A stretch of DNA of 64,000 bases. Source: Gemmatimonadaceae bacterium (GTDB lineage: Bacteria; Gemmatimonadota; Gemmatimonadetes; Gemmatimonadales; Gemmatimonadaceae). The DNA is taken from NCBI GenBank assembly GCA_025362035.1, contig JANYIN010000126.1, positions 1 to 64,000 of the forward strand, read 5' to 3'. Below the pieces are notes generated by a model that saw only the letters and a list, made by a program, of their open reading frames with translations, searched no databases and was not told the DNA's origin. The translations under genes and the position numbers were made by a program. Shown here piece after piece: positions 21,529-38,740 of the stretch (position 1 is the first letter of the stretch; every line of letters starts with the position of its first letter).

Positions 21529-21570
21529 CCGCGTCTCCCGGCGTATTTGGTGGTGGGTGCCGGCGCGTCC

Positions 21571-21586
21571 TTATGAAATCTTTATG
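21571..21586 (+). promoter_or_regulatory. Candidate KdpE operator upstream of kimA
   Basis: Sequence TTATGAAATCTTTATG: two TTATG half-sites separated so that their starts are exactly 11 bp apart, the one-helical-turn direct repeat typical of OmpR/PhoB-family regulators. It is one of three very similar sites in this window, all ahead of potassium-related genes (see 26318 and 27690), and starts 154 bp before the kimA ATG. Binding by the neighbouring KdpE is an inference. The first half-site is identical in the site at 27690. Confidence 0.55.
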
Positions 21587-21724
21587 GGCTCATTCCGGGG
21601 GAATCGTTCCGTCCCAATTCCCGGGATGATAACGTAAGCTGCTGTAAACGATCGACCTGCAGTTCGCGCTCCAACGGGGTGTCGCCCGGACCGATCCGGT
21701 AGCACTCCGAACTCTTCGGGCATC

Positions 21725-23695
21725 ATGTCGTCCACTTATAGCCGGCTCAAACATGTCGTGTTCGGTCGACCGCTCCCAAGTGAGCGGCTTGAACACGAAC
21801 GCCTCAACAAAAAAACAGCGCTCGCCGTTCTGTCGTCAGATGCGATCTCGTCAGTAGCCTACGCCACTGATCAGATCCTTTTTGTTTTGGGCGGGGCGAT
21901 CGGTATGGCCGCCGTGAGTTACGTGCTCCCGATCTCTGCGGTCATCGTTGGACTGCTCGTGCTGGTCGGCTTGTCGTACCGGCAGACCGTCTTCGCGTAT
22001 CCCAACGGCGGCGGTTCGTACACGGTGGCGAAGGAGAATCTCGGCGAGATGCCGGGACTCATCGCGGGCGCGGCCCTCTTGACCGACTACATACTTACCG
22101 TCGCCGTGTCGATTTCCGGCGGCGTGGCCGCGATCACGTCGGCGTATCCGGGGCTCGCGCCGCATACGGTGGGGATCTGCTCGCTCTCGATCATCCTGCT
22201 TGCCACCGTGAATCTTCGCGGCGTGCGGGAGTCAGGGGCGGCGTTCTCGGTGCCAACGTACGCCTTCATCGTGATGATGCTGGTACTGCTCGGCGTTGGC
22301 GCATATCGCTATTCGTCTGGACACGAGCTTGTTCAGCTCACGGCGGCGCTGAAGGTGGATCCCAGCCTGGCGCACAAGCACGCGGGGATGTCTCCCATCA
22401 CGGGCTTTGCGCTGGTGTATCTCCTGCTCCGCGGCTTTGCCGAGGGTTGCGCCGCAATGACGGGGACGGAGGCGATCTCGAACGGCGTGATGGCGTTCAA
22501 GGCCCCGGCCCAGAAAAACGCAGCGACCACCCTGGGCTGGATGGTCGCGATTCTCGCCGCCTTCTTCCTCGGCGTGTCGTTTCTGGCGCAGCACTACCAG
22601 GTGATGCCGACGACCAGCGAGACGGTGCTGTCGATCCTGGGACATCACGTCTTCGGCGGCGGCCCCCTGTATTACGCGTTGCAATACACGACATTTGCGG
22701 TCTTGGTGCTCGCGGCGAACACGGCATTCGCCGACTTTCCCCGTCTCGCCGGCATCCTTGCCAACGATCGCTTCATGCCGCGGCAGCTGGCCGCGCGTGG
22801 CGACCGCCTGGCCTTCTCCAACGGCATCATCGCACTGGCGGCCGTGGCGCTTCTGCTGGTGTGGATGTTCAAAGGAGACACGAATGCGCTGGTGCCGCTC
22901 TATGCCATTGGTGTATTCGTCTGCTTCACACTTTCGCAGGCGGGCATGGTCGTCCACTGGCAGACGACGCGTGATGCGGGCTGGGTGTGGAAGGCATGGC
23001 TCAACGGCATAGGCGCCATCGCGACCGGCCTCGTATCGGTCATTCAACTCGTGACGAAATTCACGACCGGTGGCTGGATCATCGCGGCGATCATCCCGCT
23101 CATTATCATCGTGCTGCGGAAGATTCACAAACACTACACCGAATTTGCCGAAGAGATCAAGTTCTCGGGGCAGAGTCCGATCAATCCGCTGCATCATACG
23201 GTGATCGTGCCGGTGAACGGCATCACCAAGGCCACGAGCGGAGCCTTGGTCTACGCGACGACGATCTCGGATGAGGTAATTGCGGTCTATATCGAAGTGG
23301 ACAAGCGCGACACGCAACGGATGATGGAGGAGTGGGATGCATGGGACATCGGTGTCCCGCTGGAGGTCGTTCCCTCGCCGTACCGATCGATCCTGAAGCC
23401 GCTCGTGGAATTCGTCGAAAACCTGCGCATGGTAACGCCCGGCGAGTTGGTGACGATCGTCGTTCCGGAAATCGTGCCGAAGAAGTGGTGGGAGCATCTC
23501 CTGCACAACAAGACGGCCCTGTACATCCGGACGGCCTTCCTTTTCAAGCCGAACGTCGTGGTGACGGCGATCCCCTATCTCGTCGGACATGCGTATCGCC
23601 TGCGGGAATGGATGGAGCACGATCAATACATTGAGGAAGACATCGACGCAGAGGCCGCGGAACGAAAAGGGGGGGATTCCTCGTCGGCGGCGTGA
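21725..23695 (+). CDS. kimA: KimA-type APC-superfamily potassium transporter
   Basis: A 656-residue protein that closely follows Bacillus subtilis KimA (YdaO, 607 residues): LNKKTALAVLSSDAISSVAYATDQ at 28-50, YPNGGGSYTVAKENLGEMPGLIAG, LTDYILTVAVSISGG, NLRGVRESGA, and the KimA C-terminal cytoplasmic domain HNKTALYIRTAFLFKPNVVVTAIPY. D39 and Y46 correspond to D36 and Y43 of KimA, which are needed for transport. KimA is a high-affinity, proton-motive-force-driven K+ importer. About 12 hydrophobic helices are visible in residues 30-480, then a soluble tail. The assignment gains weight from the adjacent kdp genes. Upstream lies a candidate KdpE operator; kdpE starts 87 bp after the stop. I found no c-di-AMP riboswitch in the leader by eye. 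Confidence 0.92.
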   Translation: MSSTYSRLKHVVFGRPLPSERLEHERLNKKTALAVLSSDAISSVAYATDQILFVLGGAIGMAAVSYVLPISAVIVGLLVLVGLSYRQTVFAYPNGGGSYTVAKENLGEMPGLIAGAALLTDYILTVAVSISGGVAAITSAYPGLAPHTVGICSLSIILLATVNLRGVRESGAAFSVPTYAFIVMMLVLLGVGAYRYSSGHELVQLTAALKVDPSLAHKHAGMSPITGFALVYLLLRGFAEGCAAMTGTEAISNGVMAFKAPAQKNAATTLGWMVAILAAFFLGVSFLAQHYQVMPTTSETVLSILGHHVFGGGPLYYALQYTTFAVLVLAANTAFADFPRLAGILANDRFMPRQLAARGDRLAFSNGIIALAAVALLLVWMFKGDTNALVPLYAIGVFVCFTLSQAGMVVHWQTTRDAGWVWKAWLNGIGAIATGLVSVIQLVTKFTTGGWIIAAIIPLIIIVLRKIHKHYTEFAEEIKFSGQSPINPLHHTVIVPVNGITKATSGALVYATTISDEVIAVYIEVDKRDTQRMMEEWDAWDIGVPLEVVPSPYRSILKPLVEFVENLRMVTPGELVTIVVPEIVPKKWWEHLLHNKTALYIRTAFLFKPNVVVTAIPYLVGHAYRLREWMEHDQYIEEDIDAEAAERKGGDSSSAA

Positions 23696-23782
23696 GCGTA
23701 CGTGGTGCATTCGCGTCCGCGGATAACGGAATGAACGGCGCGTTCTCGCCGACACGGATCCGCTGAACTCTTGACCTTCAGC

Positions 23783-24505
23783 ATGGCCAACACGTCCCGC
23801 GAGCAGCCGCTGCCCGACGTCATTCTCATCATCGACGATGAGCCGCAAATCAGGCGCGTGGTGCGCAATAGCCTGGTGGACGTAGCCAAGCGAGTGTCGG
23901 AAGCGGGCAGTGCCGCGGATGGCATCGACGCGGCGGCGGCGGAGCAGCCGGCGCTCATCATCCTGGATCTCGGATTGCCCGACCGCGATGGACTCGAGGT
24001 CTGTCGGGATCTGCGCAGCTTCACCTCGGTTCCAATCATCGTGTTGTCGGCGCGGCACTCCGATCGGGAGAAGGAACGGCTGCTCGATGCCGGCGCGGAC
24101 GATTACGTCACGAAGCCGTTCAGTACGGTGGAACTCAAGGCACGCGTGCGCGCGCAGCTGCGGCGCGCCATGGCGCGTTCATCGGGTGACCGCCACGACT
24201 CGATCGTGGTGGTGGACGGCCTGGTCATCGACTTGGTCGGCCGGACTGTCAAGCGCGCAGGCGTTGAGGTGCATCTGACGCCGACGGAGTGGAATCTGCT
24301 GCGGGTGTTCATCGCGCACGACGGTCAGACGCTCACGCACGCACAGTTGTTCACCGCCGTCTGGGGATCCGCAGCAGGCGATGCGCAGCAGTACCTCAGG
24401 GTCTACATCGGACAGCTGCGCCGGAAACTCGAGGTCGACCCGGTGCGGCCGCGACTCATCCGTACAGAGCCCGCGGTGGGATATCGATTCGAGCTCGGCG
24501 AGTAG
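23783..24505 (+). CDS. kdpE: KdpE, response regulator of potassium uptake genes
   Basis: A 240-residue OmpR-class response regulator. The receiver domain shows the acidic pocket DDE at 18-20, phospho-acceptor D62 in LDLGLPDRDG, S89 and the invariant K111 in TKPF. The DNA-binding winged helix contains LTPTEWNLLRVFIAHDGQTLTHAQLFTAVWG and ends YIGQLRRKLEVDPVRPRLIRTEPAVGYRFELGE, closely matching KdpE from other bacteria. KdpE activates high-affinity K+ uptake genes when phosphorylated. A TTG at 23771 could add four residues; the ATG is preferred. Its sensor-kinase gene starts 6 bp downstream. Direct repeats upstream of three transcription units are its probable binding sites. Confidence 0.93.
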   Translation: MANTSREQPLPDVILIIDDEPQIRRVVRNSLVDVAKRVSEAGSAADGIDAAAAEQPALIILDLGLPDRDGLEVCRDLRSFTSVPIIVLSARHSDREKERLLDAGADDYVTKPFSTVELKARVRAQLRRAMARSSGDRHDSIVVVDGLVIDLVGRTVKRAGVEVHLTPTEWNLLRVFIAHDGQTLTHAQLFTAVWGSAAGDAQQYLRVYIGQLRRKLEVDPVRPRLIRTEPAVGYRFELGE

Positions 24506-24511
24506 CCTACT

Positions 24512-26092
24512 GTGACGATCATGCGCCGCCCGCTGGTCCAGTGGGTGATCTGGTTCAGCGTTCTGGCGCTCGTAGGCGCGCTGATGCTGATGGTTCGCGG
24601 TCGCCTCGATAAGGCGCATGTCGCCCTCGCGTTTCTCCTCATCGTGCTCGGCGGGAGCTCGGCCGGAGGGAGAGCGCTCGGCATATCACTGGCGGGCGTC
24701 GCGTTCTTCGGGTTCGACTGGTTCTTTCTCCCGCCGTACAGCACGCTTGTGATCAACAATCCGCTCGACTGGCTGGTGCTGATCGCCTTTCTCGTCACGG
24801 GCATCGTGGCGGCGCAGCTGCTCGAGTCGCAGCGGCAGGAAGCCGAAATCGCGCGTCAACGCGCCGACGAGATCGATCAGCTGGCGACACTTGGCGCGGA
24901 GACCCTAAATGCACCCCGCGCGGTGGACGCGCTCGACGCGATCGCGAACGTAATTCGGCAGGCCATGGGCACCGATCGGTGCGAAATTTTCATGCGGAAC
25001 GCTGGCGCATCGCTCCGACTCGCGGGCCGTTCGCCAGGCATCCCCCGCCAGGAGGATCATACCGGCCTGCTCATGTACACGGTGGAGCACGCGGAAGCGG
25101 CAGCCGAGCGGAACGATGGTACGCTGACACTGATCGGCGACGCCTTCAGCGCGACACGGGCTCACTTTCCGATGCCGCTGCCGCTCACCGACCTCCGGGC
25201 ACTCGGCATTCCGTTGAATGTCCGCGAGCGGATTGTTGGCGCATTGCGTCTTTCGTCGCCTCAGTCGTTCAGTCTCTCCAACGATCAGCGGCGCGTCTTG
25301 AGCGCGCTCTCGTACTACGCGGCGCTCGGCGCCGAGCGCGTGCGGCTCGCCGAAGCCGAAGAGGAAGCGGAGTCGTTGCGCCGAGCGGACCGATTGAAGG
25401 ACGCCCTACTCGCCACGGTGTCCCACGACCTGCGTACACCGCTCACGGCAATCAAGGGGATTGCGCACGAAGTGCTGCACGGAGGCGACCGGGATCGCGC
25501 CCTCATTATCGAAGAAGAGGTGGATCGGCTGAACCACCTTGTCGGCGATCTGCTCGAGCTGTCGCAGCTCAATGCTGGCAGTCTTCGCATGACGATGGCG
25601 CTCAATACCGCGGATGACGTCGTCGGCGCCGCGCTGGAGCGTGTGGAAGCCGCGCACGGTACCGGTCGCGTACAGGTGCTCATCGCGAACGACGGTAGCA
25701 TCCTGGTGGGACAGTTCGATTTCGCGCATACGATGCGCACGTTGACGAACCTGCTCGAAAACGCGCTCAAGTATTCGCCTCCGGGCCTGCCCGTCATGGT
25801 GCGCGCGTGGCGCGAGGGTGATCGTCTGCGCTTCGCCGTGGAGGACATGGGAGCGGGCGTCCCACAAGCAGACGAAGCGAGAATCTTTGAACCATTCTTT
25901 CGGGGCAGCGGGATACCCGACGGCGTCCGAGGCACCGGGCTCGGGCTTTCGATCGCGCGACAACTCGCGGAAGCGCAGGGCGGTCGGCTTACCTACACGC
26001 CACGCGAGGGCGGTGGTAGCCGCTTTCTGCTAGAGTTGCTCGCGGGCGCGCCGCCATCGGAGCCCGACGAAATCGACGGCTTGGAATCCTGA
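24512..26092 (+). CDS. KdpD-type membrane histidine kinase lacking the KdpD sensor domain (DUF4118-GAF-HisKA-HATPase)
   Basis: A 526-residue sensor kinase starting at GTG 24512 or ATG 24521. The N-terminus holds four membrane helices in the DUF4118 arrangement (about 8-28, 35-47, 54-70, 86-104) that is typical of KdpD. A GAF-like domain follows (about 125-275) and a HisKA domain with H305 in VSHDLRTPLTAIKGI. The HATPase is complete: N-box NLLENALKYS at 413-422, VEDMGAGVP at 443-451 and GTGLGLSIA at 474-482. Unlike E. coli KdpD (894 residues) it lacks the ATP-binding/USP N-terminal region, which is encoded separately at 36323-37525. It most likely phosphorylates the adjacent KdpE. Tandem start overlap of a tiny ORF at the 3' end is described separately. 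Confidence 0.92.
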   Translation: MTIMRRPLVQWVIWFSVLALVGALMLMVRGRLDKAHVALAFLLIVLGGSSAGGRALGISLAGVAFFGFDWFFLPPYSTLVINNPLDWLVLIAFLVTGIVAAQLLESQRQEAEIARQRADEIDQLATLGAETLNAPRAVDALDAIANVIRQAMGTDRCEIFMRNAGASLRLAGRSPGIPRQEDHTGLLMYTVEHAEAAAERNDGTLTLIGDAFSATRAHFPMPLPLTDLRALGIPLNVRERIVGALRLSSPQSFSLSNDQRRVLSALSYYAALGAERVRLAEAEEEAESLRRADRLKDALLATVSHDLRTPLTAIKGIAHEVLHGGDRDRALIIEEEVDRLNHLVGDLLELSQLNAGSLRMTMALNTADDVVGAALERVEAAHGTGRVQVLIANDGSILVGQFDFAHTMRTLTNLLENALKYSPPGLPVMVRAWREGDRLRFAVEDMGAGVPQADEARIFEPFFRGSGIPDGVRGTGLGLSIARQLAEAQGGRLTYTPREGGGSRFLLELLAGAPPSEPDEIDGLES

Positions 26093-26175
26093 TGAACACG
26101 GCGAGCACGCTCGTCATACTCTTTTGCATCTCCACCACGGTTGCGATCGGCGTTGCATGGCTCCGAATGCCCTAA
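26092..26175 (+). CDS. Candidate 27-residue membrane peptide
   Basis: Its ATG overlaps the kinase stop (TGATG), a hallmark of translational coupling. It encodes 27 residues: a hydrophilic start, one hydrophobic segment of about 18 residues (STLVILFCISTTVAIGVAW) and an Arg near the end, the form of a single-pass small membrane protein. No homolog is recognised. Similar short hydrophobic peptides, such as KdpF, accompany potassium pumps, so a role with the kinase or a pump is possible but speculative. A chance ORF of this length is also possible; composition and overlap are the only support. Confidence 0.4.
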   Translation: MNTASTLVILFCISTTVAIGVAWLRMP

Positions 26176-26317
26176 ACGGTCGCGTCGGTCGTGGTGGGGG
26201 CGCGATGCCCTCTCTGCTTCGCGGTCTTCACATCCGTGCGGAAGTGGGGCTGACGGATCCTCCAGCCACGACGCCAACCTAGGGCAGACGGCGCGCCGCG
26301 CAGGCGGTCGCGGACTT

Positions 26318-26333
26318 TTACGAAAGTCTTATC
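26318..26333 (+). promoter_or_regulatory. Candidate KdpE operator upstream of the first porin gene
   Basis: Sequence TTACGAAAGTCTTATC, with the two half-sites starting 11 bp apart and a spacer beginning AAA as in the other two sites. It is the most divergent of the three. The rest of the gap between the small ORF and the porin start (26176-26453) shows no other clear signal. The porin ATG is 121 bp downstream of the site. Confidence 0.5.
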
Positions 26334-26453
26334 GCAATGGCTCGATCACTTGTACGGCTCTTGTGTCCTGGTCGATACCATTGTTTACACCTGGCTCATC
26401 CCCTGCCCGGCACCGCTCGTTCCGCTCCACTCCACATATGCGAGGAAACGGAC

Positions 26454-27620
26454 ATGAAGCTTTCCGGCACGCGAGGCGCGACGTGGCGAGAACTCACAGG
26501 AGCGATCGTCTTGGTGCTCGTCAGCCTGGTGTCGAGGGCAGGCGCCCAGGCAGCAGACAGCGCCGCCAAGACGACATCCGGTACATCGGCTGACACGCTC
26601 CCACAACGCACCTTCGGCGGCTTCGTCGATACCTACTACGCCTGGGACTTCAATCGTCCCCACAACTTCGATCGTGCATACACGACACAGCCGGCGCGAC
26701 ACGCCGAGTTCAACGTCAACCTCGCGTACGTCGAGACGAAGTGGTCGGGTCCGCGCTACCGGGGGCGGCTCGCGCTGCAATGGGGAACCTCAGTTCAAAC
26801 CAACTACGCAGGCGAACCGAAGCTTGGCAGCGTGAGCGGACCGAACGTGAGCCAGTTCATCCAGGAAGCGACCGTCGGGTATCAGCTGGGTCCAACCGTG
26901 TGGCTCGACGGCGGCATATTCCTCTCGCACCTCGGGCTCGAAGGCTGGATCTCTCGCGACAACCTCTCGTATACGCGATCACTCGTCGCGGATTTCTCCC
27001 CATACTACGAGGCCGGCGCGAAACTGACGTGGACTCCCTCATCGAGACTCACCGCGACGTTCTGCCTGCTCAATGGATGGCAGGACGTCTCCAACTACAA
27101 CACGCCGCCCGCGACGGGCGTTCGAATCGACTATACGCCGAGCCCCACCGTCACGCTCACCTATGACAACTTCATCGGCAACGCGACCGCGGACAGCGTC
27201 CCCGTTCACCTGCGTGTCTATCACGACGTGATCGCGCAGTACTCACCGAACGCGCAATGGCAATTTGCCGCGAACTATTCGCTGGGCTCGCAGAGCCGAA
27301 GTACGGCGTCGGGTGGGACGGCGAGTTGGTGGGGCATCACGACATTCGCGAAGTATCACGCCACACCACGGCTCGCCTTCGTCGCACGTGCGGAAGAGTA
27401 CTCTGACCCGAGCCAGATCATCGTCGTGACTGGTGTCCCAGCGAGCTTCCAGACCACGGGCGCATCGATCGGCACGGACGTCAGCTTCGTCGGCCCGATG
27501 GTGTGGCGCACCGAGCTGCGCGCGTGGCGCTCGACAAATGCAATCTGGCCGTCGAACGTCTCGGGTCAATACAGCGCGAACAATACACTCGCCGTCACGT
27601 CGCTGTCGGTAACCTTCTAA
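26454..27620 (+). CDS. Outer-membrane beta-barrel porin (BBP2/OmpL-like), first copy
   Basis: A 388-residue protein from the ATG at 26454, preceded by GAGGAA (26442-26447). It has a signal peptide (IVLVLVSLVSRAGAQ, cleavage about residue 25). The barrel opens with FGGFVDTYYAWDFNRPHNFDRAY and contains the BBP2-type alternating strands RGRLALQWGT and GPTVWLDGGIFLSHLGLEGW. It ends in AVTSLSVTF, a terminal Phe expected of Bam-inserted outer-membrane proteins. The frame is open upstream to 26337 but lacks export features there. It lies between the kdpED pair and the kdp operon and has its own candidate operator, so an outer-membrane route for K+ under low K+ is inferred. A paralogue is inside the kdp operon at 32473. 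Confidence 0.85.
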   Translation: MKLSGTRGATWRELTGAIVLVLVSLVSRAGAQAADSAAKTTSGTSADTLPQRTFGGFVDTYYAWDFNRPHNFDRAYTTQPARHAEFNVNLAYVETKWSGPRYRGRLALQWGTSVQTNYAGEPKLGSVSGPNVSQFIQEATVGYQLGPTVWLDGGIFLSHLGLEGWISRDNLSYTRSLVADFSPYYEAGAKLTWTPSSRLTATFCLLNGWQDVSNYNTPPATGVRIDYTPSPTVTLTYDNFIGNATADSVPVHLRVYHDVIAQYSPNAQWQFAANYSLGSQSRSTASGGTASWWGITTFAKYHATPRLAFVARAEEYSDPSQIIVVTGVPASFQTTGASIGTDVSFVGPMVWRTELRAWRSTNAIWPSNVSGQYSANNTLAVTSLSVTF

Positions 27621-27634
27621 GAATCACGAGACGG

Positions 27635-27687
27635 CCGGACACCACGACGGCAGCAGGGGCGCGCGGAAGCGCGGGCACGGTGTCCGG
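27635..27687 (+). terminator. Hairpin after the first porin gene, possible terminator
   Basis: CCGGACACC (27635-27643) pairs perfectly with GGTGTCCGG (27679-27687). The 35-nt interior is GC-rich and can form a second small stem (GCGC...GCGC). There is no U-tract, so it is a weak intrinsic terminator or an attenuating structure. It starts 15 bp after the porin stop and ends 2 bp before the operator at 27690. Confidence 0.4.
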
Positions 27688-27689
27688 AC

Positions 27690-27705
27690 TTATGAAACTC
27701 TTGTG
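27690..27705 (+). promoter_or_regulatory. Candidate KdpE operator of the kdp operon
   Basis: Sequence TTATGAAACTCTTGTG: half-sites TTATG and TTGTG start exactly 11 bp apart. The first half-site and the AAA spacer are identical to the site ahead of kimA. The first gene of the operon starts 145 bp downstream. No -10 box could be placed with confidence. Confidence 0.55.
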
Positions 27706-27849
27706 CGGCCGTCCGCGATCCCCCATGCGACCCTTACGACCCTCGAGTTAATCTCGTAGCGATCGCAGGCGGATTGCCCACCGCCGTCGCGGCGCTGTTC
27801 CGCCAGATAGCGCGCCGCACCGCGGGTAACACGTTCCCGGAGGCGCACC

Positions 27850-27981
27850 ATGTTGTTCGATATCCTCTATCTCGCTGGTACCGTTGCGTTCTTCGCGCTC
27901 ATGCAGGCGTACGTCGCGAGCTGCGACCGCCTGGGGCGCTCGAACGACGGCAATGCCGACGGAACAGGGCCACGGCCATGA
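27850..27981 (+). CDS. 43-residue membrane peptide leading the kdp operon
   Basis: ATG at 27850 is preceded by a good ribosome-binding site, GGAGG (27839-27843), and the stop overlaps the kdpF start as ATGA. The peptide has one hydrophobic helix ([20 protein letters not shown], residues 2-21) followed by ASCDRLGR and a hydrophilic Gly/Asn/Asp tail. Tiny hydrophobic ORFs directly ahead of kdpF occur in other kdp operons, as far as I recall, but they have no established role. The strong Shine-Dalgarno sequence and coupling make this a real gene and the likely entry point of ribosomes into the operon. Confidence 0.75.
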
Positions 27982-28067
27982 ACGTGGAGACGGTCATCGC
28001 CGTGATCGTATCGGTCGCGGTGCTTCTGTACCTCATTTACACCCTTCTCCGTCCGGAGAAGTTCTAA
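27978..28067 (+). CDS. kdpF: KdpF, small subunit of the potassium-transporting ATPase
   Basis: A 29-residue peptide starting at ATG 27978, which overlaps the preceding stop (ATGA), and ending in TAA overlapping the kdpA start (TAATG). It is one hydrophobic helix finishing in YTLLRPEKF; the R-P-E-K-F ending is the diagnostic KdpF signature. KdpF stabilises the KdpABC complex in the inner membrane. Double overlap on both sides indicates strict translational coupling in the operon. Confidence 0.9.
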
Positions 28068-29782
28068 TGACGGCCAATGGCTGGCTCCAGATTCTTTTCT
28101 TCAGTTTGGCCATCTTCGCTGTGGCAAAGCCGCTTGGTCTCTATCTCGTGGCGGTCTACGACGGTCGCGTGCGATGGCTCGGTCCGATCGAACGCGGAGT
28201 GTATGCACTCTCTGACGTGGATCCTGACGAGGATCAGCACTGGACGCGCTATGCGGGCTCGATGCTGCTGTTCAGTCTCGCGACGATGCTGCTCACCTAC
28301 GCGGTATTGCGGCTGCAACATCTGCTGCCGCTGAATCCGCAGCATCTCCCGGCAGTCACGGACCGCCAGTCGTTCGAGACGGCGGCCTCCTTCACCACGA
28401 ACACCAACTGGCAGTCGTATTCGGGCGAGTCGACGATGTCGTACTTCTCGCAAATGACGCAGCTCGCGTATCACAACTTCGTGTCGGCCGCTGTCGGCAT
28501 GGGCATCGCGGTCGCGTTCGTGCGTGGACTGGCACGCCAATCCGCCGGGAAGCTCGGCAACTTCTGGGCAGATCTCGTGCGCGGGACGCTGTACGTCCTG
28601 TTGCCGCTCTCACTCGTGTTTTCCCTGGTGCTCGTGCATCAGGGCGTGATCCAGAATTTCACGCCGTATCTGAACCTCACCACGCTCGAAGGCGCGAAGC
28701 AGACGCTGGCCATGGGCCCCGTCGCCAGCCAGGAAGCGATCAAGCAACTCGGAACAAATGGTGGCGGCTTCTTCAATGCGAACAGCGCGCACCCATTCGA
28801 GAATCCCACGCCCTGGAGCAACTTCTGGGCGATGTTCCTCATCTTCGCCATTCCGTCCGGTCTCGTGTGGATGTTTGGCAGGATGATTGGCAACCGGAGA
28901 CACGGCTGGGCCGTGTGGGCGGCGATGTTTCTCCTGTTCTTCAGCGGAGTGTCCACCGTCTACTGGGCTGAAGCTCGGGGCAATCCGATTCACGCTACGG
29001 CCGGCGTCAACATGCTCGCCAGTGCGACGCAACCGGGCGGCAACATGGAAGGCAAGGAGGTGCGCTTCGGCATCGTCAACTCCGCCTTGTTCGCCACGAT
29101 CACGACCGATGCGTCGTGCGGCGCCGTGAACGCGATGCACGATTCATTCACGCCACTTGGTGGTCTCGTTCCGTTGCTCAACATTCAACTCGGTGAGGTC
29201 ATCTTTGGAGGCGTAGGCGCCGGCCTCTACGGCATGCTCGCGATGATCGTGCTGACGGTGTTCATCGCGGGCCTGATGGTCGGACGCACCCCCGAGTACC
29301 TGGGCAAGAAGATTCAGGCGCGCGAAATCCAGATGGTCATGCTTTTCGCCCTGCTGTCGTCATTGATCATTCTGGGCATGACGGCCCTCTCGGTCATTCT
29401 TCCCGCGGGACTCGCTGAATTGAACAACAGCGGGCCGCACGGGTTCTCCGAAATCCTCTATGCGTTCAGCTCAGCCTTCGGCAACAACGGCAGCGCGTTC
29501 GGGGGACTGACAGGTACGACCTACTACTACAACACGATGCTTGCGGTCACGATGCTCTTCGGCCGCTTCGGGCTGATCGTCCCGGTGCTCGCACTCGCTG
29601 GCTTCATGGCGGAGAAGAAAATCGTGCCGGAGTCGATCGGCACGTTCCCGGTGACGGGTCCGCTCTTCGTGCTGCTTCTCATCGGAGTGATCCTGATCGT
29701 GGGCGCGCTCACCTTCTTCCCGGCGCTCGCCCTTGGGCCGATCGTCGAGCACTTCCTGATGGATGCCGGGAGGCTCTTCTAA
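28067..29782 (+). CDS. kdpA: KdpA1, potassium-selective subunit of Kdp-ATPase
   Basis: A 571-residue SKT-family channel-like protein with about ten membrane helices. The ATG at 28067 overlaps the kdpF stop. All four selectivity-filter segments resemble E. coli KdpA: filter [15 protein letters not shown] (TNTN at 111-114, Q116 kept), filter [22 protein letters not shown], filter [21 protein letters not shown] and filter [16 protein letters not shown]. The GRFG segment preceding the last helices is present. KdpA binds K+ and passes it to KdpB in the pump. It follows kdpF and is separated from kdpB by one base. This is the conventional, filter-complete KdpA, in contrast to the second copy at 34617. 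Confidence 0.97.
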
Positions 29783-29783
29783 C

Positions 29784-31856
29784 GTGGCAACGCAGAGACG
29801 ACCCCTGTTCGATCCGCCCATCGTTCGGCGCGCATCGCGCGATGCATTCGCGAAGCTCGGCCCACGGCACATGGTGCGAAACCCGGTGATGTTCGTCGTG
29901 CTCATCGGCAGCATTCTCACTACGCTCGTACTGTTCCGCGATGTGGCCATCGGCAGAGGCGACATCGGATTCACGCTGCAGATCGCGGTGTGGCTGTGGG
30001 TCACCGTCATCTTCGCGAATTTCGCCGAGGCAATGGCGGAAGGACGCGGCAAGGCGCAGGCGGACACGCTCCGCAAGGCCCGCACGGAAACGACCGCCAA
30101 GCGTCTCGTCTCATCCGACGACTTGAAGAACACGCAAGTCGTTGCCGCACCGGATCTTCGCCGAGGCGATCTGGTGCTGTGTCTGCCGGGTGACGTAATT
30201 CCCAGCGACGGCGAGGTCGTGGAAGGGGTCGCGTCGGTGGACGAGTCGGCGATTACCGGTGAGTCCGCGCCCGTGGTGCGCGAGAGCGGCGGCGATCGCT
30301 CCGCGGTCACCGGTGGCACGAAGGTACTGTCGGATCACCTCGTGATCGAGATCAAGGCGAACCCCGGCGAAACGTTTCTCGATCGCATGATTGCGCTCGT
30401 GGAAGGCGCGTCGCGTCAGAAGACGCCCAACGAAATTGCATTGACGATTCTGTTGTCCGGGCTGACGATCATCTTTCTGCTCGCCGTCGTCACACTGCAG
30501 CCATTTGCCATCTATAGTGGCGCGCCGGTGGCGATCCCTGTGCTGATCGCCCTACTCGTGTGTCTGATTCCCACCACGATTGGCGGCTTGCTCTCTGCAA
30601 TCGGCATTGCCGGCATGGATCGCATGATCCAGCAGAATGTCATCGCGATGAGTGGTCGCGCCGTGGAGGCGGCGGGCGACGTCAATACGTTACTGCTCGA
30701 CAAAACGGGAACGATCACGTTGGGCAACCGTCAGGCCGCCGAGTTCATTCCGGTGGCCGCAGGCGATATCAAGGATCTCGCTGATCTGGCGCAGCTCTCG
30801 TCGCTGCCGGACGAGACGCCGGAAGGCCGGAGCATCGTGGTGCTCGCGAAAGAGAAGTTCGGCCTGCGCGGCCGCGATGTCGGCAGCACGGCTGACCATC
30901 GCCAGGGAATGGAATTCGTACCGTTCAGCGCGATGACGCGGATGAGCGGAGTGAACGACGGCGCGCACCAAGTACGAAAAGGCGCCGCGGATGCGGTAGT
31001 GAAGTGGGTGCGCGAGCATGGTGGAACGATACCGGCGGATCTCGATGCAGCCGTGTCTCGTGTCGCCAGCGAGGGGGGCACGCCACTCGTGGTGGCCGAG
31101 CGAACCAACGGCCCGGCACATGTCGTCGGTGTGATCTACCTCAAGGACATCGTGAAGGGCGGCATGCGCGAACGATTCGACCGGCTGCGCGCCATGGGCA
31201 TTCGCACGGTCATGATCACCGGCGACAATCCGCTCACCGCGGCGGCCATCGCGCAGGAAGCTGGCGTGGATGACTTCCTGGCCGAGGCGACACCAGAAGA
31301 CAAGATGGCGCTCATCAAGCGGGAACAGAGCGGCGGCAAGCTCGTGGCGATGACCGGCGACGGCACCAACGACGCGCCGGCCTTGGCGCAGGCCGATGTC
31401 GGCGTGGCGATGAATACCGGCACGCAGGCGGCGAAGGAGGCGGGCAACATGATCGACCTCGACTCCAATCCGACGAAGCTCATCGAGGTGGTGGAGATCG
31501 GGAAGCAGCTGCTCATGACGCGCGGCTCGCTCACGACGTTCTCGATTGCGAACGACGTGGCGAAATACTTCGCCATCATACCCGCGATGTTCGTGGCCAC
31601 GTACCCGCCGCTCCAGGCACTCAACGTCATGCGGCTCCACTCGTCGCAGTCGGCGATCCTGGCGAGCGTGATCTTCAATGCGCTCATCATCATTGCGCTC
31701 ATTCCGCTGGCACTGCGCGGTGTCAAATACCGCCCCGCGCCCGCCGGCGTGATTCTGCGGCGCAATCTCTTCGTGTACGGGTTCGGCGGCCTCGTGGCGC
31801 CCTTCGTGGGCATCAAGGCGATCGACATGCTGCTCGTACTCGTCCATCTCGCGTGA
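29784..31856 (+). CDS. kdpB: KdpB, ATPase subunit of the potassium pump (only copy in the window)
   Basis: A 690-residue P-type ATPase from GTG 29784, one base after the kdpA stop; GGGAGG at 29768-29773 is a matching ribosome-binding site. An in-frame ATG at 29763 would put that site inside the gene and is disfavoured. The phosphorylated Asp is D306 in DKTGT (E. coli D307). TGES at 158-161 contains S161, which corresponds to Ser162, the residue whose phosphorylation inhibits E. coli KdpB at high K+. The hinge motif is [21 protein letters not shown]. With KdpA and KdpC it couples ATP hydrolysis to K+ import at the inner membrane. No second kdpB exists in the window although kdpA and kdpC are each present twice. 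Confidence 0.97.
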
Positions 31857-31864
31857 GGGCGGAC

Positions 31865-32476
31865 ATGATGCGGAAGCAGGTTCGGCCAGCCATCGTGATG
31901 ACGCTGTTGCTGTGTATTATCACAGGCTTCATCTATCCGGGCGTCGTGACTGGCCTGGCGCAACTCGTATTCAGCCGGCAGGCCAACGGCTCGCTGGTGG
32001 AAGTCAACGGCAGGGTGGTTGGTAGCGCGCTCATCGGGCAGACGTTCATGCAGCCGTACTACTTCCATTCGCGACCGTCGGCTGCGGGCTCCGGCTATGA
32101 CGCTACGGCGTCCGGCGGCACCAACAAAGGGCCGACGGATCGCAAGCTCGCCGATACGCTTGTCGCGCAGGCGATCGACAGCGCTGTGAAGATCGACCAC
32201 GTCACCAAGGGGCAGATCCCCGGGGACATGGTGACGTCATCCGCATCCGGGCTCGATCCGCACATCTCGCCCGAAAACGCGCATCAGCAGGTGCCACGGG
32301 TGGCCACGTCGCGCCGTGTTACCGTCGAGGTGATTCAAGCACTGGTGGACGCGCACACCGAAACGCGGCAGTTCGGTTTCTTCGGGGAACCACGCGTGAA
32401 CGTGCTGCTCCTCAACATCGCGCTCGACAGCGCCTTCAGTCGTATCGACCCAACACGGAAAGGGAGTGCAAAATGA
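31865..32476 (+). CDS. kdpC: KdpC1, subunit of Kdp-ATPase
   Basis: The ATG at 31865 follows the kdpB stop by 8 bp; a GTG at 31853 overlapping that stop is possible. The product is 203 residues: one N-terminal membrane helix (IVMTLLLCIITGFIYPGVVTG) and a soluble domain with GQTFMQPYYFHSRPSAAGSGY, ASGGTNKGPTDRKL, ASGLDPHISPENA and RVNVLLLNIALDSAF. KdpC is a single-span subunit that holds KdpA and KdpB together and aids ATP binding. The SGGTNKGPTDRKL type differs from the SGGSNLGSTNPVL type in KdpC2. The porin ATG overlaps its stop (ATGA). Confidence 0.95.
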   Translation: MMRKQVRPAIVMTLLLCIITGFIYPGVVTGLAQLVFSRQANGSLVEVNGRVVGSALIGQTFMQPYYFHSRPSAAGSGYDATASGGTNKGPTDRKLADTLVAQAIDSAVKIDHVTKGQIPGDMVTSSASGLDPHISPENAHQQVPRVATSRRVTVEVIQALVDAHTETRQFGFFGEPRVNVLLLNIALDSAFSRIDPTRKGSAK

Positions 32477-33906
32477 GACCGCAGCCCGCAGTCGGGGCGC
32501 TTGCCGCCGGACTACTGCTTTTCTCGAGTGAGACAGCATACGCGCAGACATCGTCCGAGGTGCTGCCGCCTTCGACATCGACCCCGGTGACTGGAAGTGC
32601 GTTCATGCCGATCACACTCACGCCGAGACCGGACAGCGCCAGACCGAAGCCGGACCCGTTCGCATTCGGCGACTTCACGTGGGTCAACGGAAACGCTCGC
32701 ACCAAAGACTCTCCGCTCGGCACGGCTAATTTCACTGGAGAATTCCGCGCCGATATCAGCTACATCGGCTCGTTCAATCATCCGTCGGATCACACGCTCG
32801 TGGGAACCTCAGAGAGTGGACGGACGAGTGAAATTCAGGTCCAGCAGCTCGGTGTCGGTGGAGATTTCCACTATGGGCAGGCGCGAGGGCGACTGATGAC
32901 GCAGTTTGGCCTGTATTCCACGATGACGCCGCGCAACGACGCGAGTCCCGGACGCGGACAATGGAACCTTGCCGACGCGTACCGCTATCTGTCAGAAGCT
33001 TATGGCGGGCGGCACTGGAATGCGATGAACGGCATCAACCTCGACGCCGGCATCTTCATGTCGTACGTAGGGCTGTTCAGCTACTACAACTTTGACAACT
33101 GGGCGTATCAGCCCTCGTACGTGTCGTCCAACACGCCGTGGTTCTTCAATGGACTCCGCCTTCAGGTGTTCACGAGCGACCACCTGAAAATCGAGCCTTG
33201 GCTGGTCAACGGCTGGCAGTCGTATGGCATGTTCAACGAAGCGCCTGGCCTTGGCCTCCAGGTCCTCTGGCGTCCGACGGGCAGTCTGTCGATGTTGTCG
33301 AACTCGTACTACGGGCACGACTGGCTCGGCATTCCCGACCGCATGCGCGTGCACAGTGATAACAGCATCGAGTACAAATACTTCGACCAGCCACGAGGGG
33401 CGTACGACAAGGGCGCATTCTCCCTGACCGTCGATCTCGGATGCGAGTCGGGTGGTGGCGTCAGCTGCAGCAACGGAACCGACGCGAGTCCATCACAGAA
33501 CTTTCTGGGATTCATGCTCTACAACAGGAGCTGGTTCAACAACGACGTGTTCGGCTTGACACTCGGCGGCGGGGCCATGACCAATCCCGGACGCTATCTC
33601 GTCCTCCTGCCGCCGATCAACGGCGCAACAGCCACCTCGGGGACGCCGTACTTCACGGAGAATCCGGGCGATCAGTTCAAGGCGTGGGATTCATCGATCA
33701 CCTTCGACTATATGCCCGACCAGTTCACGACATTCCGGTTCGAGCTGAACCATCGCGAAGCGAACGTGCCCTATTTTTCCGGACCAGGCGGTGTGACCCC
33801 TCCGCTCGGTAACACTGGGCCGTTGGGATCCCTCGTGCCGAACTTCACGCCGGATCTGCGCAAGACCGAGACACGACTCAACCTGTCGTTGCTGGTGAAG
33901 ATGTAA
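32473..33906 (+). CDS. Outer-membrane beta-barrel porin (BBP2-like) inside the kdp operon
   Basis: A 477-residue protein starting at an ATG that overlaps the kdpC1 stop (ATGA), so it is translated from the kdp transcript. A signal peptide (LAAGLLLFSSETAYAQ) is followed by a short Pro-rich linker and a barrel: FTWVNGNARTKDSPLGTANFTGEFRAD opens it, aromatic-rich strands GIFMSYVGLFSYYNFDNWAY follow, and the protein ends in NLSLLVKM. The architecture parallels that of the other porin (26454) but with a longer N-terminus and loops such as CESGGGVSCSNG. I infer an outer-membrane entry route for K+ dedicated to the pump; no transport assay is implied. It is followed 6 bp later by kdpC2. Confidence 0.85.
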   Translation: MRPQPAVGALAAGLLLFSSETAYAQTSSEVLPPSTSTPVTGSAFMPITLTPRPDSARPKPDPFAFGDFTWVNGNARTKDSPLGTANFTGEFRADISYIGSFNHPSDHTLVGTSESGRTSEIQVQQLGVGGDFHYGQARGRLMTQFGLYSTMTPRNDASPGRGQWNLADAYRYLSEAYGGRHWNAMNGINLDAGIFMSYVGLFSYYNFDNWAYQPSYVSSNTPWFFNGLRLQVFTSDHLKIEPWLVNGWQSYGMFNEAPGLGLQVLWRPTGSLSMLSNSYYGHDWLGIPDRMRVHSDNSIEYKYFDQPRGAYDKGAFSLTVDLGCESGGGVSCSNGTDASPSQNFLGFMLYNRSWFNNDVFGLTLGGGAMTNPGRYLVLLPPINGATATSGTPYFTENPGDQFKAWDSSITFDYMPDQFTTFRFELNHREANVPYFSGPGGVTPPLGNTGPLGSLVPNFTPDLRKTETRLNLSLLVKM

Positions 33907-33912
33907 ACGCCG

Positions 33913-34620
33913 ATGCCGCGCCGTGATGCATCAGGGAGCGAATCGAACGTTGGTCGGGACGCGGCACTCGACACCCAGTGGCGCTCAGGCGCGCTGGTGG
34001 CGCTTCGGTTGACGGTTCTGCTCGTGCTCGTGTGCGGTGTGGGCTATCCGGCGTTGCTATATGGCGCGGCACGACTGGCGTTTCCGAGTCAGGCGGAAGG
34101 GAGCTTGCTGCACGATCAGTGCGGGCGCGTCATCGGGTCTCTGCTCATCGGGCAGTTGTTCGAGGCGCCGCAGTATTTTCACGGTCGTCCGAGCGCGGTC
34201 GCCTACAACGCCGGCAGCTCGGGCGGCTCGAATCTTGGATCCACAAACCCAGTGCTCGCGGATTCACTCGCGGCTCGCGCCATCGCGTTTCGTGAGGCGA
34301 ACGCGCTTGCCCGGGATCGGTCGCTCCCGCCGGATGTCGTCACGGCGAGCGGAAGCGGCATCGACCCCCATGTCTCTCCCGAAATGGCGAACCTCCAGGC
34401 GACTCGGGTACGGCGCGCACGCACGCGCGACCGCGGCGTGTCATTCAGCGCGGAGCAGTTGCAGGAACTCATTGCGGCGCACACGCTGACGCGACAAGCC
34501 GGCATTCTTGGCCAGCCTCGCGTGAACGTACTCGAACTGAATCTTGCGCTCGACTCGCTCGACTCGAACGCACCGATCCACTTCGGTTGTGTTCCAGCAG
34601 CAACTGGCGCGCAAAGGTGA
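33913..34620 (+). CDS. kdpC: KdpC2, second KdpC subunit
   Basis: A 235-residue KdpC-family protein. After a 30-residue polar N-terminal extension comes a membrane helix (LRLTVLLVLVCGVGYPALLYGAA), then QAEGSLL, IGSLLIGQLFEAPQYFHGRPSA, SGGSNLGSTNPVLAD, TASGSGIDPHVSPEMA and RVNVLELNLALDSLD. All are typical KdpC features and they resemble E. coli KdpC (SGGSNLAVSNPEL) more than KdpC1 does. It has no adjacent KdpB. It starts 6 bp after the porin stop, and its own stop overlaps the GTG of kdpA2 (GTGA). A regulatory or alternative-subunit role is speculative. Confidence 0.93.
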   Translation: MPRRDASGSESNVGRDAALDTQWRSGALVALRLTVLLVLVCGVGYPALLYGAARLAFPSQAEGSLLHDQCGRVIGSLLIGQLFEAPQYFHGRPSAVAYNAGSSGGSNLGSTNPVLADSLAARAIAFREANALARDRSLPPDVVTASGSGIDPHVSPEMANLQATRVRRARTRDRGVSFSAEQLQELIAAHTLTRQAGILGQPRVNVLELNLALDSLDSNAPIHFGCVPAATGAQR

Positions 34621-36326
34621 CGAGCTCCGGCGCGCTGCAATATGCGCTCTTTCTCGGCGCCGTCACGGCGCTGGTGCGACCCTTGGGAGCGTACCACGCC
34701 CGCGTCTTTGCCGGCGAGCACACGTGGTTCGATCCGGTGTTTCTGCCGCTGGAACGTGGAATTCACCGGATCGCAGGCATCGATGCGCGCCGGCAAATGT
34801 CGTGGCGCAGCTATGCCGGTGCGTTCGTATCGTTCGGTGGCGTCGGGACGCTGCTGCTTTACGTGATTCTCCGCGTGCAGGTGTGGCTACCGCTCGCGGC
34901 AAACGTTGCAGGCATCACCACTCCGATGACGCCCGACCTCGCGGCCAATACTGCGATCAGTTTCGCGACGACCGCGACGTGGCAGGCATATAGCGGCGAA
35001 ACGACGATGACCTACCTTTCGCAGCTCGTAGGTCTCACGGCGCAGAACTTTATTGCGGCGGCCGCCGGACTGGCCGTGGGTATCGCGTTCATCCGCGGCC
35101 TTGCCAACGAACGATCGAATTCCCTCGGCAATTTCTGGGTCGACGTGGTACGCGCGCTCGTTTGGGTGCTCCTTCCCATGTCGATCATCGGGGGACTGGT
35201 GCTCATCTGGCAAGGTGTGCCGATGACCATCGCCCCGTATCTCGTCGTGACCACGCTCGAAGGCAGCGCGCAGACAATTGCCGCCGGGCCAGTCGCGGCA
35301 CTCGAGTTCATCAAGCAGCTTGGCACTAACGGGGGAGGCTTCTTCAACGCCAATGGCGCACATCCCTTCGAAACCCCCTCGCCCCTGGCCAACCTGCTCG
35401 AACTGCTCGCCATCGCCGTGCTCCCCGCCTCGCTTCCGTACACCTTCGGGCGCATGACCAGACGCGCCCGAGATGGTTGGGTGCTGTACTGCGTGATGGT
35501 CGCATTGTGCATCGGTGCTATTGTCGTCGCGCATCGAGCGGAGCAGCGCGGCACGCCGGCGCTCATGCACGCTACGGGAGCCGCAACTGCACCCAACCTC
35601 GAGGGGAAGGAAGTGCGATTCGGCATTGGCGGTTCCGTGCTGGCGGCGGTGGCTACGTCAATTGGCGCCACGGGCTCGACCAACGCGATGCATGACAGTT
35701 TTACTCCGCTCGGCGGGGCCGTGCCGTTCGCGAACATGCTTCTCGGCGAGATCGCCTTTGGCGGGCTCGGAACAGGATTGATCAGCATTGTACTCGTGGC
35801 GATGCTCGCGCTGTTCATAACAGGCCTGATGATTGGCCGGACGCCGGAGTACCTTCGCAAGGTGATCGGTCCGCCAGAACTGAAGTTGATGATGTGGTAC
35901 CTGCTCGCGGCGCCTGCAGTCGTGCTCGTGTTGACCGCCGCCGCCGTCGCCGTGCCTGCTGGACTGGCGGGGCTGAAATGGAACGGCGGAATGCACGGCT
36001 TCACCGAGATCTTCTTCGCGTACGCGAGCGCGTTCGGGAATAACGGGCAGAGCTTCGCCGGACAGAGCGCGAACACTCCTTTCTGCAACGTCACCACGGC
36101 CATCGCGATGATGGCCGGTCGATTCGGCCTTGTCATCCCCGCGCTGGCGCTCGCAGGACAGCTCGGCTCCGCGCGCACACGAGTCCACGAAGGTGCGGTG
36201 CCGACCGCCACCATGCTGTTTGGGGGTATCGTCCTCGCGACCGCCATCGTGATGGGCGCGCTCACGTACCTTCCTGCCTTCGCGTTGGGGCCGGTTTCGG
36301 AACACCTGTCCATGAGGGGGCGATGA
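34617..36326 (+). CDS. kdpA: KdpA2, second, filter-divergent KdpA
   Basis: A 569-residue KdpA-family membrane protein from GTG 34617, which overlaps the kdpC2 stop (GTGA) and sits where family proteins begin (ALFLGAVTALVRPLG). A TTG at 34587 would add unmatched residues. Filter I reads ATTATWQAYSGET: both Asn of TNTN are replaced (residues 117-121), while WQ and YSGE remain. Filter II is [20 protein letters not shown], filter [21 protein letters not shown] (SCGAV becomes ATGST), filter IV ASAFGNNGQSFAGQ. The AGRFG motif is intact. The core fold and most glycine residues are intact, so it may still bind a cation but with altered selectivity. There is no cognate kdpB next to it. Its stop overlaps the KdpD-N start (ATGA). 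Confidence 0.95.
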   Translation: MTSSGALQYALFLGAVTALVRPLGAYHARVFAGEHTWFDPVFLPLERGIHRIAGIDARRQMSWRSYAGAFVSFGGVGTLLLYVILRVQVWLPLAANVAGITTPMTPDLAANTAISFATTATWQAYSGETTMTYLSQLVGLTAQNFIAAAAGLAVGIAFIRGLANERSNSLGNFWVDVVRALVWVLLPMSIIGGLVLIWQGVPMTIAPYLVVTTLEGSAQTIAAGPVAALEFIKQLGTNGGGFFNANGAHPFETPSPLANLLELLAIAVLPASLPYTFGRMTRRARDGWVLYCVMVALCIGAIVVAHRAEQRGTPALMHATGAATAPNLEGKEVRFGIGGSVLAAVATSIGATGSTNAMHDSFTPLGGAVPFANMLLGEIAFGGLGTGLISIVLVAMLALFITGLMIGRTPEYLRKVIGPPELKLMMWYLLAAPAVVLVLTAAAVAVPAGLAGLKWNGGMHGFTEIFFAYASAFGNNGQSFAGQSANTPFCNVTTAIAMMAGRFGLVIPALALAGQLGSARTRVHEGAVPTATMLFGGIVLATAIVMGALTYLPAFALGPVSEHLSMRGR

Positions 36327-37525
36327 GCGACGACCACGCTCCACAACCGCCGGAGCGCCGCGCTGCACAGCGTGAGACCCCGGATTTCCTCCAGTTGGTG
36401 CGTCAGCGGGAGCGTGGCAAGCTCAAACTGTACGTAGGTTCCGCCGCTGGTACCGGCAAGAGCTACCGGATGCTTGAGGAAGCCCATGATTTGCGGCGGC
36501 GCAACGTCGACGTCATCGTGGCATTCATCGAGACGCACGGCCGATCGGAGACGCAGGCGCAAGTGCGTGACCTGGAGATCGTGCCCCGCCAAAAAATTGA
36601 ATACCGCGGGGTGACGCTCGAAGAAATGGATGTGGACGCCATCGTCGCGCGGCGCCCGAACGTGTCCGTCGTCGACGAGCTTGCGCACAGCAATGTCCCC
36701 GGCGCGCGACACCGAAAGCGGTGGGAAGACGTGATGGAGTTGCTCGATGAGGGGATCAACGTCATTTCCGCCCTCAACGTGCAGCACATCGAGTCGCTGA
36801 ACGACGTCGTCGCGTCCACGCTGGGCGTCACCGTGCGTGAGACCGTGCCCGATTGGGTGGTGGCGACAGCCGACCAGGTCGTCAATCTGGACATCTCGGC
36901 GGAAGACCTGCGACAGCGCCTGCGAGAGGGGAAGATCTACTCGCCGGACAAGATTGACCGAGCGCTGAAAAACTTCTTCACCGACGAGAATCTCACCACG
37001 CTGCGCGAACTCGCGTTGCGGGAAGTCGCGGGTGCGGTAGACCGATCGCGCGAAGAGATCGTACGCCGGGAAACCGGCGACGTGCCGGCAGCGCCACGCA
37101 CGATGGAGCGCGTGCTCGTCGCGATGTCGAGCAATCCTCCCTATACGGCAGCCTTGCTGCGCAAGGCAAGTCGGATCGCCGGGCGTCTCAACACGGACTG
37201 GTTCTGCGTCTACGTACAGACCGTCGGCGAGCGCGCCGATCGAATCGATAGCACCGTGCAGCGAAAGCTCGTGGATAACATCCAGCTCGCGCAGACGATG
37301 GGTGCGGAGGTCGTGAAGCTCGAAGGCGAGGAGGTTGCCGACGTGATCTGTCGGTTTGCGATCAAGAAAGGCGTCACACTCCTGATCGTCGGCCAGAGCA
37401 AACGCTCGCGGTTGCACCAATTCTTCAAGGGATCGGTGGTGGATCAACTCGTGAACAACAGCGCCGGGCTCGACGTGCTCGTCGTGTCGTTCGACGCGCA
37501 AAAGCCGGCCGGAGGGCGACCATGA
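36323..37525 (+). CDS. kdpD: Stand-alone KdpD N-terminal sensor protein (ATP-binding plus USP domains)
   Basis: A 400-residue protein equal to the N-terminal soluble part of KdpD. Walker A is GSAAGTGKS at 39-47 and the Walker B region is VVDELAHSNVPG at 116-127; the KdpD pattern ETHGRSETQAQ and ALNVQHIESLND are present. A universal-stress-protein domain follows (about 250-390: RVLVAMSSNPPYTAAL... LLIVGQSKRSR). There are no membrane helices and no kinase domain. In E. coli these two regions modulate KdpD kinase activity, and short KdpD proteins are known in some cyanobacteria, so this is likely a diffusible regulator of the kinase at 24512. It overlaps kdpA2 and the next gene by ATGA junctions. 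Confidence 0.93.
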   Translation: MSDDHAPQPPERRAAQRETPDFLQLVRQRERGKLKLYVGSAAGTGKSYRMLEEAHDLRRRNVDVIVAFIETHGRSETQAQVRDLEIVPRQKIEYRGVTLEEMDVDAIVARRPNVSVVDELAHSNVPGARHRKRWEDVMELLDEGINVISALNVQHIESLNDVVASTLGVTVRETVPDWVVATADQVVNLDISAEDLRQRLREGKIYSPDKIDRALKNFFTDENLTTLRELALREVAGAVDRSREEIVRRETGDVPAAPRTMERVLVAMSSNPPYTAALLRKASRIAGRLNTDWFCVYVQTVGERADRIDSTVQRKLVDNIQLAQTMGAEVVKLEGEEVADVICRFAIKKGVTLLIVGQSKRSRLHQFFKGSVVDQLVNNSAGLDVLVVSFDAQKPAGGRP

Positions 37526-38532: not shown

Positions 38533-38740
38533 ACGCAGACGTGAGCAGCATCGCCTGAGTCTCGCGGTTCGGCCGTGGACGCTGGTGTGAGGCAAAGTGC
38601 CCCACCTTCGTGGCAGAACTTTCAACGCAGCTCCGCTGCCGATGGTGTGACGTTGCGCCGCGCGGGCCATTCCCTTACCATCGTTGCCCCGAGGCCAGCA
38701 CAAGAATCAAACGATCCCCTACCTCGTTTACGCGGAGCCT

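Follow-up and report, generated by a model that had tools for sequence, protein, structure and literature searches.

KdpE is generally presented as regulating one target only, the kdpFABC operon. In the window analysed here, a whole stretch of 64 kb from a Gemmatimonadaceae bacterium, three direct repeats with an 11-bp period precede genes of different kinds, and a kdpE-like gene lies between the first two of them. A preliminary description of this DNA proposed that KdpE binds all three repeats, uniting K+ transporters of different energy types and the porins in one regulon. The locus raises the question of whether the repeats are real elements and, if so, which regulator would read them.

Three direct repeats in the window

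The repeats described at 21571, 26318 and 27690 were all found in place. As 17-mers consisting of a 6-bp half-site, a 5-bp spacer and a second 6-bp half-site (box A), they start one base earlier, at 21570 (CTTATGAAATCTTTATG), 26317 (TTTACGAAAGTCTTATC) and 27689 (CTTATGAAACTCTTGTG). The half-site starts are exactly 11 bp apart and the spacer begins with AAA at each site, as had been claimed, and the sites do precede the named genes, lying 155 bp ahead of kimA, 137 bp ahead of the likely porin start codon and 378 bp ahead of kdpA. Two direct 6-bp half-sites separated by 5 bp are the arrangement of E. coli-type KdpE promoters. The AAA itself was rejected as a component of the signal; it is a habit of this genus and is not required elsewhere. 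The features of the window, including a second direct repeat (box B) and the putative -10 elements, are the following.

21570..21586, + strand: box A of the kimA promoter, CTTATG-AAATC-TTTATG; A score 25.9; conserved in the congeners G004, G007 and G001 and in G018
21603..21619, + strand: box B position of the kimA promoter, degenerate; 6/12 half-site positions; clear box B in the congeners G004 and G007
21630..21635, + strand: putative -10 of kimA, TAACGT; 60 bp from the start of box A
21725..23695, + strand: kimA, APC-type K+ transporter; PDB 6s3k (KimA), E 1.9e-148, residues 5-618
23783..24505, + strand: kdpE, OmpR/PhoB-type response regulator; E. coli KdpE 4kny, E 1.7e-60; equivalents of R193, R200 and T215 present
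24512..26092, + strand: histidine kinase DUF4118-GAF-HisKA-HATPase, KdpD C-terminal type
26317..26333, + strand: box A of the porin promoter, TTTACG-AAAGT-CTTATC; found with the relatives-only matrix
26349..26365, + strand: box B of the porin promoter, CTTGTA-CGGCT-CTTGTG; start 32 bp downstream of the start of box A; 12/12 half-site positions
26376..26381, + strand: putative -10 of the porin 1 gene, TACCAT; 59 bp from the start of box A
26454..27620, + strand: BBP2-family outer-membrane porin 1; PF07642, E 7.6e-73
27689..27705, + strand: box A of the kdp promoter, CTTATG-AAACT-CTTGTG; found with the relatives-only matrix; conserved in relatives
27722..27738, + strand: box B of the kdp promoter, CCCATG-CGACC-CTTACG; start 33 bp downstream of the start of box A; 10/12 half-site positions
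27749..27754, + strand: putative -10 of the kdp operon, TAATCT; 60 bp from the start of box A
27978..32476, + strand: kdpFABC (kdpF 27978-28067, kdpA 28067-29782, kdpB 29763-31856, kdpC 31853-32476)
32473..33906, + strand: BBP2-family porin 2, a member of the operon, its start overlapping the end of kdpC; PF07642, E 4.3e-38; found at the corresponding position of the kdp operon in relatives

The assignment of KimA is based on similarity over the full length to the solved structure, and those of kdpA, kdpB and kdpC on matches above cut-off to TIGR00680, TIGR01497 and TIGR00681, while kdpF was assigned by reading. For porin 1 the ATG at 26454 is preferred, because a longer reading frame from 26337 would begin within the promoter. 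Porin 2 has no site of its own and is tied in through its membership of the kdp operon. It is followed by a second kdpC-kdpA pair (window 33913-36326) with no second kdpB; KdpA2 shows 46% identity and retains the pore-loop motifs GTNGGG, NAMHDS and FGNNG, so it may share KdpB. KdpD is split: a KdpD-N/USP protein (36323-37525; best model KdpD_non_kinase, below cut-off) belongs to the kdp operon, and the kinase half with DUF4118 and GAF domains stands beside kdpE. The same split arrangement is also present in relatives.

The 4.64-Mb genome contains four exact copies of the pattern YTTAYGAAANNYTTRTS, and the window sites account for three of these; 59 other genomes contain two copies, one of them (in G004) 97 bp ahead of a kimA orthologue. 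As this pattern was derived from the sites themselves, a separate, independent test was made, in which both strands of the window were scanned with a matrix trained on 41 sites of relatives, with all sites of the genome itself excluded. At a combined score for both boxes (A+B) above 18, this matrix returned exactly the three reported sites, and the chance rate in a first-order Markov simulation was 1.83 per 4.64 Mb, or about 0.025 per 64 kb. Many equally good matches elsewhere in the genome would have pointed the other way; outside the window the only exact match is at C120:10667, with neither box B nor, by reading, a phased -10. At two mismatches the pattern is about as frequent in this genome as its reversed control, and for this reason a loose match is no evidence by itself. 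The three repeats with an 11-bp period are genuine and not a product of chance. The match at C120:10667 (near an ABC permease/SusC-type gene pair) and those at C103:16218 (ahead of a TonB gene) and C188:5583 (near an efflux locus) all have a strong box A and no box B; they were rejected as regulon members and are regarded as chance or unproven.

Promoter layout with two boxes

The preliminary description was right about the repeat and incomplete about the unit to which it belongs, since a second direct repeat downstream was overlooked. The layout is box A, then box B starting 32-33 bp further on, then 10 bp, and then a -10 element of the form TAnnnT, which lies 59-60 bp from the start of box A at all three window promoters. 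If this hexamer is taken as -12 to -7, box A would extend from about -71 to -55 and box B from about -39 to -23 relative to the putative starts; judged by the distance to the predicted -10, the centre of box A is thus near -60, within the E. coli footprint (-72 to -50).

The same spacing emerges from the promoters of relatives. Distances between pairs of YTTRYG half-sites have their highest peaks at exactly 11 and 32 bp, followed by 21 and 43 bp, and do so solely on the coding strand; the kdpA promoters gave 13 pairs at 11 bp (shuffle mean 1.7) and 15 at 32 bp (shuffle mean 1.4), and the reverse strand had at most one pair at any distance. These peaks indicate four half-sites at 0, 11, 32 and 43, that is, two direct-repeat dimers. 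When box A alone was used for selection in Gemmatimonadota, box B at offset 32 reached 8.66/12, compared with an all-offset mean of 4.98 (sd 0.80). In a separate count, TAnnnT stands exactly 10 bp past box B in 25 of 37 promoters, whereas no offset gave more than 3 in shuffles. Of the two boxes B is the weaker one, and at the window kimA a recognisable box B has been lost. No description of box B was found in the freely accessible literature searched.

At pho-box promoters, PhoB carries out class II activation from direct repeats that take the place of the -35 element. The direct repeats found here likewise lie about 10 bp upstream of the -10, in the -35 place, and may work in a similar way. 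We consider it highly probable, judging from the sequence, that each of the three repeats (box A) is bound by a KdpE dimer, that the promoters to which they belong, those of kimA, porin 1 and kdp (with porin 2), are activated by KdpE, and that dimers at boxes A and B activate RNA polymerase. This reading builds on what is seen directly in the sequence, geometry, conservation, -10 phasing and genome-wide specificity. In the proposed course of events, K+ limitation would be the signal on which the kinase phosphorylates KdpE, and binding would depend on this phosphorylation. One KdpE dimer would anchor at box A (half-sites YTTRYG, 11 bp apart), and a second, cooperating with it, would occupy box B three helical turns further on, on the same face, where a -35 element would otherwise be. 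From there it would contact sigma-70/RNA polymerase in the manner of PhoB at pho boxes, and the outcome would be activation rather than repression. As the window kimA has no recognisable box B, its response may be weaker or may need box A alone.

The element in relatives and its predicted targets

The comparison with relatives that had been suggested was carried out on their kimA and kdpA loci, by means of an alignment-free EM model with leave-one-out scoring against shuffles. Sites are conserved ahead of K+ genes: on the coding strand, 27/30 kdpA and 12/29 kimA promoters scored above the best of all shuffles (maximum 15.6), so that position before kdpFABC and conservation there, which characterise the E. 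coli type of site, are found at 27/30 kdpA loci of the order. At 17/29 kimA promoters no site was detected, and several of those kimA genes lie inside a kdp operon. Kinship within the order inflates such counts; the regularities of spacing, strand and -10 recur in another phylum.

In the gene maps of relatives, the neighbours of the kdpE-kinase pair are kdp, kimA, kup or porin genes, and the two-box element stands ahead of these. The kup loci offer the clearest natural comparison. The element is present at 4/30 kup loci (G005, G023, G074 and G088), all beside kdpE or its kinase, and 25 of the 26 kup loci that lack it adjoin neither gene (one-tailed Fisher about 2e-4, calculated by hand). Porins with an element of their own occur in five genomes, namely the present one, G001, G018, G077 and G105, the last belonging to another family of the order; in other relatives the porin lies within the kdp operon, like porin 2 of the window. 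The idea that transporters of different energy types are combined therefore seems, at the level of sequence, to reach further than was claimed, as the predicted targets found across the order include kdp, which encodes a P-type ATPase, as well as kimA, kup and porin genes.

In a search of 119 genomes with the four-half-site pattern, 10 matches had no more than one mismatch, and every one of them lies at a kdp, kimA, kup, porin or kdpE locus; when two mismatches were allowed, 18 of the 23 matches do. Within the present genome this pattern matches, with up to two mismatches, solely at the porin promoter (26317). The reversed pattern gave 25 matches at that threshold against these 23, and since the control is so similar the genome-wide case rests on the location of the matches, not on their number. 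Small proteins of about 120-167 aa encoded near kdpE or kimA start just past a KdpE-type element at four loci (L099 5513-6107, L114 7944-8429, L111 7709-8136 and L121 11150-11523), and they are possible new members of the regulon; a Pfam search with those of L099 and L114 gave no match.

The predicted regulator and known KdpE systems

The E. coli KdpE site is TTTATA-N5-TTTACA with a footprint from -72 to -50, and its binding needs R193, R200 and T215 (PMC3264566). The window protein at 23783-24505 combines a receiver domain with a winged helix, and the equivalents of all three residues, counted along the alignment to 4kny, are kept. Among 93 models KdpE matched best, with 234 bits against the 325 bits of the NCBIfam KdpE equivalog NF007820, a cut-off set for close E. 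coli-type proteins; as it is not reached, the regulator is called KdpE-like on the basis of best match, residues and context. The conserved DNA-contact residues support the predicted KdpE regulon well. The proposal of such a regulon is upheld as a prediction from sequence, in which three independent lines, half-site geometry, promoter position and contact residues, agree with E. coli KdpE. Another OmpR-type regulator of the window, RR2 (38684-39451; receiver domain weak, below the Pfam cut-off), was rejected as binder of the sites, having E in place of the R193 equivalent. In G076 (100% complete) a solitary kimA at C12:57754 carries boxes A and B without a phased -10, and a search for a KdpE homologue above 40% identity in this genome found none; the element is perhaps a relic, or else a site of another regulator.

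The layout is also found in Proteobacteria. A half-site model built from Gemmatimonadota and trained without E. coli gave as its top hit in 400 bp the footprinted E. coli KdpE site (21.7; null maximum 13.2). In the kdpFABC promoter of E. coli MG1655 a box B-like TTTGCG-AAATC-TTTGCA lies 32 bp downstream, followed by 10 bp and TACCCT. Across 13 proteobacterial kdp promoters from 13 genera, with box A chosen from the published motif alone, box B at offset 32 scored 9.54/12 against a mean of 5.39 (sd 1.07), and TAnnnT occurs at +59 in 9/13. Enterobacter, Klebsiella, Raoultella, Duffyella, Moraxella, Ideonella, Variovorax and Mycetohabitans share the layout, and Providencia, Proteus and Arsenophonus have a weaker form. 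It is clear in gamma- and betaproteobacteria and partial in alphaproteobacteria, where only A and B2 are present; at most of the Acidobacteria loci examined it is not clear. In the alphaproteobacterial kdp promoters L230, L206, L225 and L238, A and B2 are kept and B1 is replaced by CTCGAACC, and several alphaproteobacterial kdp loci show an inverted repeat CGAACC-TTTATG-CGGTTCG around B2.

Three other explanations have to be weighed against these data. The sites might be bound by a KdpE paralogue (C144:14898 in the present genome, 55% identical) or by both regulators, so that the regulon would not be governed solely by the KdpE encoded between the sites. This would fit G004, in which the kimA promoter is intact and the only KdpE-like protein is the paralogue (C2, 52% identity), with a recognition helix alike; the helix of the paralogue (YLRVHLTNLRRKIE...ITE) keeps R193, R200 and T215. 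We nevertheless regard it as unlikely, since the sites follow the window-type kdpE-kinase pair, which is a neighbour of 4/4 kup sites and of the majority of those at kimA, porin genes and kdp, and no high-scoring site adjoins the paralogue locus of this genome (L112). It is similarly doubtful that only box A is a KdpE site and box B a poor -35 region resembling a half-site by chance. The weakness of box B, its loss at the window kimA and the E. coli footprint, reported only over -72 to -50 (PMC3264566), speak for it. On the other hand, box B is found in two phyla at offset 32-33 with both its half-sites, again spaced 11 bp, and a -35 hexamer at a 17-bp spacer would sit between B1 and B2, where conservation is low.

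A chance likeness of T-rich promoter DNA without any common regulator is extremely improbable. The T-rich half-sites are indeed short, and matches with at most two mismatches in the genome are about as frequent as those of the reversed control, but out-of-sample recovery, strand and spacing specificity, the phased -10 and the location of the matches in 119 genomes contradict it. If a KdpE box stands ahead of mechanistically different K+ importers and of porins, one sensor would set the whole route of K+ entry, and transporters could be swapped between species while the switch stays. The BBP2 porins gain a testable role in K+ uptake, and box B in E. coli offers a direct way to test how KdpE activates RNA polymerase.

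The KdpE box is the known part of this system; what is new is a regulon of wider scope, together with a second box that seems to be general. It is likely that KdpE promoters in general, that of E. coli kdpFABC included, have two dimer sites, of which the downstream one takes over the place of the -35 as at PhoB promoters, and that in Gemmatimonadota this arrangement came to serve kimA, kup and a family of porins as well, so that the KdpE regulon there would span K+ entry through both the outer and the inner membrane. Like the PhoB pho boxes, the elements are 11-bp-period direct repeats ending about 10 bp ahead of the -10 with no good -35; they differ in the half-site (YTTRYG here, TGTCA in pho boxes) and in the extra upstream dimer three turns away. 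With E. coli kdpFABC (Sugiura 1992; Narayanan 2012; PMC3264566) they share the 6-5-6 direct repeat, the 11-bp period, the T-T opening of each half-site and the same -10 distance, whereas the Gemmatimonadota half-sites end in G instead of A and tolerate C at the first position. The regulon of E. coli KdpE is essentially kdpFABC alone (PMC7657598), and the kimA and porin promoters would be added to it here. The KdpE proteins of C. acetobutylicum, S. aureus and M. smegmatis belong to the same regulator family and have the same target operon (PMC5401905). The M. smegmatis site (CCGTAAAGAAACCATCAAGGCC) lacks such a repeat, while that of C. acetobutylicum is reported to be similar to the E. coli site (PMC5401905).
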